Assembly: GCA_031258945.1 (NCBI GenBank)
Contig: JAIRME010000001.1
Coordinates: forward strand, 1 to 52,925
DNA: 52,925 nucleotides
From: Mycoplasmataceae bacterium
Lineage (GTDB): Bacteria > Bacillota_I > Bacilli_A > Mycoplasmatales > Mycoplasmoidaceae
Direction of reading: 5' to 3'
Of the stretch, positions 14,421 to 26,458 are shown piece by piece; positions within the stretch are counted from its first letter, which is position 1; each line of letters begins with the position of its first letter. Under the pieces are notes generated by a model. The model did not search any database. It saw only the letters and a program-made list of their open reading frames with translations, and was not told the origin of the DNA. The position numbers and the translations under genes were made by a program.

Positions 14421-14494
14421 TGGCGGGGGTTATAGGAATTGAACCCATGTCAGTGGTTTTGGAGACCATTATTCTGCCGTTGAACTAAACCCCC
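14421..14494 (-). tRNA. tRNA-Trp (anticodon CCA)
   Basis: The minus strand folds into a full cloverleaf: acceptor GGGGGTT/AACCCCC, D stem GTTC/GAAT, anticodon stem ATGGT/ACCAC with loop CTCCAAA (anticodon CCA), a 4-nt variable loop, T stem ATGGG/CCTAT with loop TTCAATT, discriminator G73 and an encoded CCA. It reads UGG. The first anticodon-stem pair is an A-C mismatch. Four additional Gs precede the 5' end, giving a run of nine. A second tRNA-Trp(UCA) that reads UGA must lie elsewhere. It is 14 bp from the ymdB stop and marks the right border of the conjugative element. Confidence 0.92.
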
Positions 14495-19058: not shown

Positions 19059-20861
19059 TTAATTGTCTTTAATAGTTTTTAACTCGTTTAAGAATGTTTT
19101 GTAATTATCTTGGTTATTCATTTCTTTTTTATCGCCTAAAAACATTGACATAATGATACCTTTTTTAGTTACATTATTTACATTAAATGATTTAGCATAT
19201 TTTGCTCAAATTGCTTTAATACTATTATCATTTTGATTGAAATCTCTCGTTGTTTGTTCTACTAGCGAGTTGGCGATGTATGTAGATTTTTGAACAGAAA
19301 AGTAATCAATTACAGTTACAGGTACATTAACTAATCCGGCTTCAAAGTCGGTGACTGGAACGATAACTACTCTTGTTGAACTACGATAACCGTAAGCAAT
19401 AATTTCATTGATTTCATACAAACTATTAGCAAATATACGCTTAGTCTTGAGAATATTATCGGTTACTGATTGTGGATGTTTGAAAAGATTAATGTCATGC
19501 ATAGTATTAGCGATGCTTTCATTTTGGACATATGATAACAATTTTTGTTTTGCTTTTTCGAACAATGGTTGGCGATATTCATATTGTTGATAAAGCGGAA
19601 TAACTAAAATAGGAGCAAACATAAAATAAATATCCTTAAAAAATTGTTTGTTGACATTAATAAAAGCATTTTTAATATCATTGTAATCAAACAAATTTAT
19701 AAATGGTGTATAGTTCACATCAAAATTAATACTATTAAAATAAGGGGATGTAATAATGTTCAAGGTTTGATGTTTGCTAAAATGGTAATCATTTTTAATT
19801 TTCATTAGTTTAACCATCTCTTCTTGTGCTAATGGCGAAAACAAAGTTCGAAATTGTATTTCGTTATTTCGTTGACATGGGAAATAACGATCGAACTCAG
19901 GATTATCCATTGGTTCCATTTGTTTATTTTTATTAAAGAATTTTTCAGCATTTTTTTCATTTTTAAATTCACCCAAATTGACAAAATCTAGAGATTCGGC
20001 TGCATTGGACTTAAAAAATAATTTAGTGTCTGTTCAATAACGAGGAGCTGGATTGGTTGTCGTAGCACTAATTATTTTGGGTGCCATGTAAGAGGTTGTT
20101 CTGCCATCGACAATACGAGTACGTCGAACCATTACGGTGATCGTACCAGTATACACATGATCATACATATCGGTAGATTTAGTTTTTAAAACAATAAAGG
20201 GATTAGTTTTCAATGTACCAGACAGACAATAAAGAACAGATGTATTCACATCATTTTTTAATCACATTGTTCAATTAAAATAATCGGCTTCTGAAAAATA
20301 ACGAGTAAATTGAATTAAAGGATAAGTTTGTTCAAAAATTGTATAAGTTAAATCATTACAAATATGGGATAGAAGATTAGCTAATTGATTTCGAGCAGTT
20401 TGAAAATTATTATTTCTTTCACTTTGTAATTCGTTTAATTGATCTTTGTTTATCAAATAACTTTTCTTTATTAATCAACTCAATCCAAAGATAGTTGACC
20501 CTATGACAGTTGAAGTGATACCAATTCCTAAGTATAATGTCAATGCGGAGAAATTATGTGAAATAACAGTGGGTCATAGAATGAATATAATGCCTACAAA
20601 AAAAATAATTAAACCAATTATTCGCATAAAAGTCATTCAAAAGCGAGACTGTTTTACTTCTTTATTCTCTTTTTGAATTTGTTTATCAAGATCTCTAATT
20701 TTGTCAGCGGTTGTGCGATTAGCGTTAATGTCAATCTTAGAACGTTCTAATATGTATTTATTAAAAATATTATTGATGATTTTTTCACTTTGGTTTTGCA
20801 AGAAACCATTAAAATAATCTACGACATGTAATGTTTCATTATTAAAAGAAGCATTAGTCAT
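19059..20861 (-). CDS. Uncharacterised 600-aa membrane protein paired with LemA
   Basis: The N-terminus is soluble and helical (MTNASFNNETLHVVDYFNGF, then a charged NRTTADKIRDLDKQIQKENK). Two membrane helices follow at about residues 80-100 (IIGLIIFFVGIIFILWPTVI) and 106-127 (ALTLYLGIGITSTVIGSTIF). The remaining 470 residues are soluble, with alternating strands and helices and a basic segment (TGTITVMVRRTRIVDGRTTS). It is 28 bp downstream of lemA on the same strand. LemA genes in Mollicutes and Firmicutes often stand beside a large two-TM protein of unknown function (some called DUF3137). That link is suggested, not shown. TGA codes many Trp. No signal peptide. Confidence 0.75.
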
Positions 20862-23369: not shown

Positions 23370-24074
23370 ATGGCTGAAGCAATTTACCGTGGCTATATTA
23401 TTTGTAAACAACCATATCAAATTTTTGATGAAGTAGTTACTTTTTTGATTGATGATGGGTGTCGATTTACATGTCTTTCCAGAGGAAGTCGAAAAATAAC
23501 TTCTAAAAATGCTCGTCATCTATTTGTAGGGAGTTATGTGGAATTTCAAATATTTCAAAGCCGGCATGAGAACAAATTAAGCCGTTTAAAAAAAGTAATT
23601 ACAGTCAAACCGATTGATTGAAATTATGAAATGTTAGAATCTTTCAATGTTTTGAATGAATGTGCAAATAAATTAGAATTAAAAAACCAACGTTTATATA
23701 AATTTTATCAAAAGCATTTGGAAATGATTTTTAATCAATTATTTTACGATAAAATATTAACACTAATTATTTTAGAACAATTTATTAAATTATCTGGGCA
23801 TACATTAGAAGTCAATCGTTGTATTAAGTGTAATGATAATAAAATTAAAACTATTTCTTTTAAAGACCATGGTATGTTGTGTAATCTATGTTTTGATCCG
23901 CGCAAAGATAAGTACTTTGATTTAACTATTTCCAAGGCATTTCATTACCTATTTAATCAGCAATACGAAAAATTAAATACTAATATACAAGAATTAGATT
24001 TTATGATTAAATTACTAAAGATTTATATTGACGATAATATTGCCGTTAAATTGCAATCATTGAATACTTATTAA
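23370..24074 (+). CDS. recO: DNA repair protein RecO
   Basis: 234 aa, typical for Mollicutes. The N-terminal OB fold (MAEAIYRGYIICKQPYQIFD, EVVTFLIDDGCRFTCLSRGS, RKITSKNARHLFVGSYVEFQ) is followed by a helical middle and the zinc finger NRCIKCNDN...MLCNLCFDP (C-x2-C and C-x2-C). RecO mediates RecA loading on SSB-coated DNA. Its stop abuts, base to base, the stop codon of the convergent coiled-coil protein gene on the minus strand. TGA is used for one Trp. Confidence 0.93.
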
Positions 24075-26237
24075 TTAATGTTTTTGCTTGCTTCTAATAA
24101 TTTTACGAATATCTTTGGCTTTATTACGTGCTTTTTCACGTTCTAGTTTTTTATGCCATTTTTCCATTTTAAGTGCTTTACGATAAGCTAATTTTTCTTG
24201 TAAAGTAGGACGTTCATTTAAATGTTGAATGTGTCGTTTTAGATGATCAATTTGACTTTCAAGACCACGAATTTGGTGTTCTTGAGAATTAATGTGTGAT
24301 TGCAATTTTAGTGCTAATTTAATACGGACATAATTCTGTAATAATTGATCACGTAACTTTTTAATTTTTTTCTTTTTATGTTCAATTGTATTTTCTAAAG
24401 TGTAAATGAATTTTTCTAATTGACTAATAAGTTTCATTGATTGTCGATGTGCACGAACAGCATTTTTTGCACGTTTTAATAATCGACGAGCAACAACTGC
24501 TTCGCGAGATTTATTATCAATAGCATGTAAAATTAACGCTGTGATTACGAGCATAACACAGAAAGCAAAAGTGGCGATTGATATAGTGCCAAAGAGAGTA
24601 AGTTCTCCTCGAAAATTTGTGAAATCAAACATTGAATCACCATGATAAATATTTAACATTAATAAAGTGATAACAGCCACAAACACAAGACCTAAAATGA
24701 TGAGTGAAAGTTTCACGAATCCATTAACTCATCCTGGGATATGAACATAACCAGTAAATTCTTCTTTTTTTCGACGAATCATGGCTTGGTGTTCTTGTTT
24801 CTTTTTTGCTTTAGCTAATTTAATAGCGCTACGGCGAGCCTGTTTTTCAGCTTTTATAGCCATTTTTTTAGCAAATAATTCATGTAGTTCTTCTTCGCGT
24901 AATAATTTAAAATGTGCTTTACGTTGTTCAATTAATTTTCTTTTTTCTTGTTTTCGTAATTGGATTAAACGTTTCTTTTCTTGTTTTTTTTGAAAAATTA
25001 ATTTTAATTCCTTTTCACGAGTTTCACGAAGAATTTTAATTTTAGCTATCTTCTTAATTTTAGCAGCTTGTTTAATTTCTTTTTTAATTTTAGCTGCTAA
25101 AAGAGCCTTACGTTGTTGTTCAGCTTTTTGTGATGCAATTTTTTGTTTTTTCTTTAGGTGTCTTTCATATTTACTTTGTAGATATTGTTTTTTGAAAAGA
25201 TTTTTTTGTTGTTTAACGATTTTCTTTTGTTGAATAGCTCGTTTACGAGCCATTAATACATCTTGGTAAGTTATTTCACGATTTTGTGCTTTTTTAAGTT
25301 CTTGAATTTTCTTAATTTCTTCGTTATGAAGTTGTTGGATTCTATCGTGTTTTTTTTGAATTGATTCTTTTGCAATTCTTAAAGCTTGGACTTTTTGTTC
25401 ATTACCCTTTTTAATATATTCTGCTTGTTTTTGAGCAATACGAGTAAGAAGCAAAATTTGATGTTTTCGTGCATTGCGTAAACTTCTTTGTTTTTTTAGA
25501 GATAATTTAATTTTGCGGTTTAGTATACGTTTGCGTTTTGCTTTTGCTTTATCTAGAATGTGGGCTTGTTTGTTTAATTTACGTTCTAAAATTTTACGTT
25601 GTTTAGCAATCGCTTTACGTTGTTCAGCAACTTGATTTTTTTCTTGTCTTTTTTTAGCAATTATCGCTCGTTTTTGTTCACGAATAAGACGACGATGTTT
25701 TAAGTTTTCTTGTCTACGTTCCTTTGCTAATATTTTCTGTTGATGTCTTATTTTCTGTTGTTGTGTTCGTAGAACATGAGCATCAATTTTTTGTTGTCTT
25801 CGTAATTCGGCCTTCTGTCGTCTTTTAAAACGAGCAGCTTGACGTTGGCTATGTCGTTTTAAAATATTTTGTTTTCTTATTTTTTTAGCAATAGCTTTTC
25901 TTTTGGTTTTATCAATTTTGGCTTGTTTGCGTTGTGTCTCTTTTTCAATGCGAGCGGCATGTCTGTCTCCTGCTCGTTTTTCATTCTTAACATCCTTGTT
26001 ATATTCATTTTTAATTTCACGTTTTTTGGCTTCTTGTTTAGCAATTTTACGAGCAGCTTTTTCTTTACGTTTTTGTTCTTTAATTGCTTGCTTTTGTAAA
26101 CGAAGTAAATCTCTAGATTTTTGCTTTTGTAATTTTAAAACCTTTTTATTTTGCTTAATTTCTGATTTTGGTAAATCGTTGCTGCCAATATCAACATTAA
26201 CAATTACTTTTTCAGTTTTATTTTTTGATTTGCTCAT
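24075..26237 (-). CDS. Giant Lys/Arg/Gln-rich coiled-coil membrane protein, 720 aa
   Basis: One frame runs from ATG at 26235-26237 through a TGA (Trp, about residue 503) to the stop. Residues 1-45 are polar (MSKSKNKTEKVIVNVDIGSN). Residues about 40-500 are an almost unbroken helix of Lys, Arg, Gln, Glu, Ala and Ile with few hydrophobic or aromatic residues (RKEKAARKIAKQEAKKREIK, QRKAIAKQRKILERKLNKQA). Two membrane helices follow (LSLIILGLVFVAVITLLMLN and FGTISIATFAFCVMLVITAL). A second coiled coil of about 135 aa ends the chain. The net charge is strongly positive. It has no signal peptide. Family not recognised. It may tether DNA, RNA or cytoskeleton to the membrane (inference). Confidence 0.8.
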
Positions 26238-26283
26238 ATTATCATTTTTATCAATATTTACCTTAAAATATTTTATATAAAAT

Positions 26284-26321
26284 AAAATAGAAAGCATTTT
26301 TTTGACAATGCTTCCTATTTT
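26284..26321 (-). promoter_or_regulatory. 15-bp hairpin in the leader of the coiled-coil protein gene
   Basis: AAAATAGAAAGCATT (26284-26298) pairs with AATGCTTCCTATTTT (26307-26321) with one mismatch, which becomes a G-U pair in the minus-strand RNA. The loop is 8 nt. It lies 46 bases before the ATG and lacks a proper U-run, and no minus-strand gene lies upstream to be terminated, so a 5'-leader structure is more likely than a terminator. Apart from this and the glyS promoter I see nothing in the divergent gap 26238-26478. Confidence 0.55.
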
Positions 26322-26458
26322 AAAAATATAGTACAATTAGGTTAATACTTACTTTTCCTCTTTCTTTTTCATTATGAAATTTTGAAGAATGCTTCATAAA
26401 CACATATCATTATAGCGATAATAAATTATGCGAGCATTTTTTCTTTTCATTATCATAA

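Follow-up and report, generated by a model that had tools for sequence, protein, structure and literature searches.

Shape keeping and membrane organisation in wall-less cells are understood for only a few mycoplasmas and spiroplasmas. Among the described systems closest to the protein considered here, HMW2 (MPN310), a scaffold of the attachment organelle of Mycoplasma pneumoniae, has 1818 residues with eleven coiled-coil regions (PMC4923136), and Rv3852 of Mycobacterium tuberculosis is a lineage-restricted nucleoid-associated protein anchored in the membrane, nucleoid proteins being typically basic (PMC8233713). A different arrangement is seen in RNase Y and RmuC, in which one N-terminal membrane helix precedes a long cytoplasmic coil and a catalytic or folded domain. 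TolA, in turn, is a periplasmic protein with one N-terminal anchor, and its domain II is a long Lys/Ala-rich helix.

The locus that we compare with these systems lies in a 52,925-nucleotide stretch of DNA, referred to as the window, from a mollicute whose two nearest relatives in the genome collection are metagenome bins labelled 'Mycoplasmataceae bacterium', which we take, by the bin names, to come from termite guts. It encodes a protein of 720 residues, in which a K/R-rich helix is followed by two adjacent membrane helices and a second helix. The gene and its parts, all on the minus strand, are as follows.

26283-26322, minus strand: stable inverted repeat of 16 pairs with a T-rich tail, resembling a terminator or attenuator and preceding the start codon
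24075-26237, minus strand: whole gene (720 residues), ATG at 26237-26235 and stop at 24077-24075, from translation and the open-run test
26154-26237, minus strand: N-terminal 28 residues, mostly non-helical in the model and near neutral (net +2)
24756-26153, minus strand: basic helix, residues 29-494, net about +118, with a K/R stripe of period 3.62 and Gln and hydrophobic residues opposite
24717-24758, minus strand: juxtamembrane motif FTGYVHIPGWVNGF, from alignment with relatives
24729-24731, minus strand: sole TGA codon, the invariant Trp503, TGA also in the two nearest relatives
24645-24716, minus strand: membrane helix 1, residues about 508-531, from hydropathy and the AlphaFold2 model
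24594-24644, minus strand: short loop (residues about 532-548) that carries the GxLTxFG motif as GELTLFG and is predicted to lie outside the cell
24519-24593, minus strand: membrane helix 2, residues about 549-573, running unbroken into the next helix in the model
24504-24530, minus strand: motif at the exit of membrane helix 2, here LHAIDNKSR and in the nearest relatives LHxxDxKSR
24078-24503, minus strand: C-terminal coiled coil (residues 579-720) with a net charge of about +27 and hydrophobic residues at a period of 3.45-3.5

Translation of the minus strand from 26237 to 24078 with table 4 gives 720 residues from ATG to stop without a frameshift, the single in-frame TGA being read as Trp503 (W503). 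The coordinates, length and lone TGA (Trp) of the original prediction are thus borne out, although the strand was absent from it, and no stop or frameshift splits the frame in this sequence. A 720-codon open run is far beyond chance, the maximum in 500 dinucleotide shuffles of the stretch being 188 codons, and Arg is mostly encoded by CGN codons (CGT-rich), as in the neighbouring genes. The gene is antisense to both of its neighbours, recO (23370-24074) and glyS (from about 26473). The inverted repeat at 26283-26322 sits between the start of glyS and that of the 720-residue gene; Rfam has no match to an RNA element near this gene.

The long region had been described as extremely basic, and residues 29-494 do carry 164 K/R vs 47 D/E (net +117). 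Likewise, the two adjacent membrane helices that had been predicted coincide with hydropathy peaks at residues 510-528 (KD 3.02) and 552-570 (KD 2.68), with the 23 residues between them carrying net negative charge. The hairpin has the PxW..F, GxLTxFG and LHxxDxKSR motifs of a hairpin family specific to the genus, and all eight hairpin proteins detected combine basic flanks with weakly acidic or neutral loops. Given this charge pattern, the positive-inside rule predicts that both ends of the protein lie in the cytoplasm, in agreement with the earlier suggestion.

The original prediction had both helical regions as coiled coils. A heptad coiled coil repeats its hydrophobic residues every 3.5 residues, and this is what the C-terminal region does (A+ILVMFYW period 3.48, power 10.5, 99% level of shuffles 6.8), so that the claim stands for this part. 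It does not stand for the first helix: in residues 29-490 the power at 3.5 is only 0.1 for hydrophobic residues and 1.2 for K/R, and the K/R residues instead recur with a period of 3.62 and a power of 21.6; the highest power among 1000 simulations under an order-4 Markov model was 13.3. In all seven successive 66-residue segments this stripe has a phase of 135-203 degrees, i.e. it is kept over about 460 residues, and K/R account for 65% of residues at the stripe centre vs 15% on the opposite side, which is occupied by Gln and hydrophobic residues. As 3.62 residues is the pitch of a straight, unsupercoiled alpha-helix, the basic residues do not wind around the helix but keep to a single face through about 128 turns. 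The N-terminal region is thus not a heptad coiled coil and looks like a straight striped helix. As controls for periodicity, domain II of E. coli TolA gave no stripe and a MukB coiled coil gave the expected hydrophobic period of 3.52. Nor does the region behave as a charged single alpha-helix of the ER/K type, since it has 29 pairs of opposite charges at i,i+4 vs 31.7 expected (z -0.63) and a net charge of +118. Neither TRF nor self-BLAST found hidden repeats of note in it.

AlphaFold2 predicts nearly all of the full protein as helix with few short breaks (mean pLDDT 71, pTM 0.29), those in the long helix falling at about 85-93, 278-279, 319-323 and 366-372. A model of the core from five sequences (mean pLDDT 80, pTM 0.36) has the first membrane helix, a short loop and the second membrane helix, the last of these running without a break into one long C-terminal helix. 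These models rest on few sequences and have low pTM; they support the helix and say nothing reliable about packing.

The earlier statement that no named family has this layout agrees with our searches. Pfam has no match for the protein, including any DNA- or RNA-binding domain; the PDB sequence search yielded no usable match; Foldseek found none for the model against the PDB (best E 6.9); phage records gave no match; and the literature searches retrieved no description of such a layout. A profile of the C-terminal part also aligns to generic coiled coils in the PDB, namely tropomyosin, YbgF and MotB. The one NCBIfam match, to NHLM HlyD, scores 22.7 bits vs a cut-off of 156 and was set aside as a match of helix composition. 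RNase Y and RmuC share a membrane segment followed by a long cytoplasmic coil, but Pfam finds no KH+HD or RmuC domain after the coil of the 720-residue protein. The likeness to TolA domain II is confined to a long helix on a membrane anchor, domain II being nearly neutral (+7 over 265 residues) and without a K/R stripe. With HMW2 the protein has in common a very long helical chain that is internal and probably structural in a wall-less bacterium; it differs, by description, in that its long helix lacks the heptad period, is strongly basic and is joined to a membrane hairpin. Library searches for similarity to attachment-organelle proteins, with HMW2 itself compared by description, gave no Pfam match and, in NCBIfam, only the match far below cut-off. 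Rv3852 is likewise lineage-restricted and anchored by its own transmembrane segment, and in both proteins a membrane segment and a strongly basic region occur in the same chain; the mycobacterial protein, however, has a single C-terminal membrane helix, and here DNA binding is putative and the distant relatives are not very basic. Rv3852 is also much smaller. By these tests the protein belongs to neither the HMW2 nor the Rv3852 kind, though it may work like one or the other, and we file it with membrane-anchored helical scaffold or tether proteins.

A search of 60 relatives recovered two clear homologues in the same genus, of 500 residues (in genome G022) and 600 residues (in G024), which are 30% and 28% identical over the whole alignment, respectively, with the core at 28-33%. 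In these two, as in the 720-residue protein, a TGA codon specifies the invariant Trp of the PxWVN motif. A core profile added two further relatives with the same order of parts, of 890 residues (G033) and 854 residues (G019), which share 46% identity over the listed region; on their own, their hairpins score 31 and 27 bits against the three-sequence profile vs a best of 12.3 in 1000 local shuffles. The juxtamembrane motif reads GYxxPxWVNxF in the three nearest relatives and LPxWxxxF in the distant two. The layout of long helix, hairpin and helix thus recurs in five proteins of 500-890 residues that are 28-33% identical or less. That four diverged relatives in the same genus, matched at 28-33% in the core or by profile only, keep this layout is the outcome that had been set in advance as support for a structural role, and it indicates that the gene is real and belongs to a fast-diverging family.

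The sequence of the N-terminal helix hardly aligns among the layout relatives, its length ranging from about 140 to 690 residues. In the 28%-identical homologue from G024 the K/R stripe is again present (period 3.60, with a power of 14.8 that 1 of 1000 simulations matched), and it is absent from the short N-terminal helix of the G022 protein. The distant pair keep the layout and not the strong charge or stripe: they are much less basic (net +53 over 689 residues in G033 and +68 over 657 in G019). In the G033 helix it is the acidic residues that give a line at 3.62, and in the G019 helix no charge line is clear. As neither has a K/R stripe, the strong basic stripe characterises one branch and not the whole family.

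A similar hairpin is found at the end of three shorter proteins, behind strongly basic tandem repeats. These are a 234-residue protein on contig C35 of the same genome (hairpin 25.0 bits vs a best shuffle of 14.6, good support), a 516-residue protein in G024 (20.2 vs 15.7, moderate support) and a 359-residue protein in G025 (13.6 vs 7.7, weak support), the last of which is strongly supported by a tandem repeat of 66-75 residues in common with the C35 protein. This repeat does not match the basic helix of the 720-residue protein. A Pfam match to DUF1090 in the G025 protein spans 40 repeat residues without any single stretch passing by itself, and we did not use it. The proteins with the 66-75-residue repeats lie in same-strand arrays, G000:C35:20000-32000 (L109:2505-11877, minus strand) in the genome of the window and G025:C3:2000-13256 (L108:24-6245), each of which resembles a single operon. 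Short proteins of about 133-143 residues with two membrane helices, which begin with M[SA]FISNKER and end with an LSGRKN motif, are also encoded in two genomes of the genus (L022:1528-1959, minus strand, and L056:1408-1821). Their loop motif is similar to that of the hairpin family, to which they may be kin, or they are perhaps a small family of their own.

The search of 320 genomes of the order yielded confident members in this genus only. The new matches in a class-wide search were only proteins that we take, from their sequences, to be RNase Y-like and RmuC-like, and one coil-only match; the RNase Y-like and RmuC-like matches, at E about 1e-6, set the noise level of the full-core profile, and with hairpin-only scores of 9.8 and 1.5 bits, at shuffle level, they were rejected. 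A GlyRS tree of 24 genomes places all five carriers with a readable glyS in one nine-genome group (support 86/98). The other four of the nine (G001, G005, G006 and G021) gave no match, so that the protein is dispensable there, was missed in incomplete assemblies or has diverged past detection; carrier assemblies being 51-91% complete, these absences are not firm. The minimal history requires three changes, e.g. one gain and two losses. The check proposed earlier, of whether relatives keep such a frame next to recO, came out negative: in two near relatives (G006 and G021) recO and glyS adjoin without the gene, in G024 they are separated by a different gene, and the homologues are elsewhere, near genes that we take by reading of their sequences to be ssb, rpoB or tsf, the last of these in both G033 and G019. 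No gene neighbour points to a role in cell shape.

A layout kept while the sequence diverges is expected if shape, and not an active site, is under selection. The reading that we favour, with a probability of roughly 40%, is that the protein is a membrane-anchored rigid rod on the cytoplasmic side of the membrane, which serves there as a cortical scaffold or tether by lying along an anionic surface. The conserved hairpin would anchor the protein with both ends in the cytoplasm, as its charges suggest, and the C-terminal segment, judging from its heptad periodicity, may pair molecules into dimers or bundles. At 0.15 nm per residue, 462 residues would span up to about 70 nm, and the N-terminal 460 residues would be a rigid helix of such a length, without supercoiling. 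Its basic stripe, aligned along one side from end to end, would rest on an anionic surface that is flat or straight, for which the membrane's own inner leaflet, itself anionic, or some anionic filament is the likeliest candidate, and the Gln/hydrophobic side would face neighbours; together such rods would make up a cortical scaffold in a wall-less cell. We prefer this account because a one-sided basic rod pinned to the membrane would fit a flat anionic surface, of which the inner leaflet is the nearest, and because a heptad C-terminus would pair molecules. The step that lays charge on a surface may be limited to one branch, as the G033 and G019 proteins are much less basic and lack the K/R stripe.

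The main rival holds that the polycationic helix is a membrane tether for the nucleoid, ribosomes or mRNA, akin to a membrane-anchored nucleoid protein or a basic ribosome-binding tail. A net charge of +118 over 462 residues would bind any polyanion non-specifically, the tandem-repeat relatives are strongly basic too, and the mycobacterial Rv3852, with its DNA binding and C-terminal membrane helix, offers a precedent (PMC8233713). We nevertheless regard this account as possible but doubtful, given that a straight stripe does not track a nucleic-acid helix, that Pfam matched no nucleic-acid-binding domain, and that the G033 and G019 proteins keep the layout while being far less basic, which implies that polyanion binding is not the conserved property.

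The neighbours of the repeat proteins in the C35 and G025 arrays have N-terminal export signals, and this raises the prospect of a cytoplasmic linker, in which the hairpin would associate with exported proteins within the membrane, leaving the long helix to transmit force or organise them, a role comparable to that of the internal scaffolds of mycoplasma attachment organelles such as the long coiled-coil HMW2 (PMC4923136). The 720-residue gene and its four closest layout relatives, however, lie outside such arrays, and the library searches detected no similarity to a described organelle protein (HMW2 itself being compared by description), making this quite unlikely. Least probable of all, to our mind, is that the basic helix is a mere compositional expansion of an AT-rich genome, a passive spacer or the product of low-complexity drift, and that the anchored hairpin alone has a specific function. 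The variable length and poor alignability of the N-terminal helix would be in keeping with drift, but a stripe coherent in phase over about 128 turns and found again in a 28%-identical relative argues against it, as do the use of CGN codons for Arg as in other genes, rather than A-rich drift, and the lack of long tandem repeats in the helix.

The cortical scaffold thus remains our preferred reading, and the protein is a candidate for a home-grown membrane skeleton or tether. A broader proposition, that this wall-less lineage evolved its own membrane skeleton from hairpin-anchored, straight single helices that are basic on one side and tens of nm long, is more speculative and we think it rather unlikely. 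If true, such a skeleton would be distinct in form from the coiled-coil, actin-like and tubulin-like bacterial cytoskeletons, and the clade-specific, membrane-pinned striped rods would represent an independent solution to shape and membrane organisation without a wall. If the protein turns out to tether nucleic acid, it would exemplify a means of holding the nucleoid or ribosomes at a membrane that has not been recorded before. The stripe is simple and measurable, which makes the idea testable by binding and localisation assays.

Elsewhere in the window, a 600-residue open frame without a Pfam match lies beside a LemA-family gene (19059-20861, minus strand). A tRNA-Trp with anticodon CCA (14421-14494, minus strand) is the sole tRNA detected in the window, and the tRNA-Trp that reads TGA is presumably encoded elsewhere in the genome. 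The same genome has two matches to the RNase HII family (G000:C21:21794-22327 and G000:C38:17345-17965), one of them with a single in-frame TGA.
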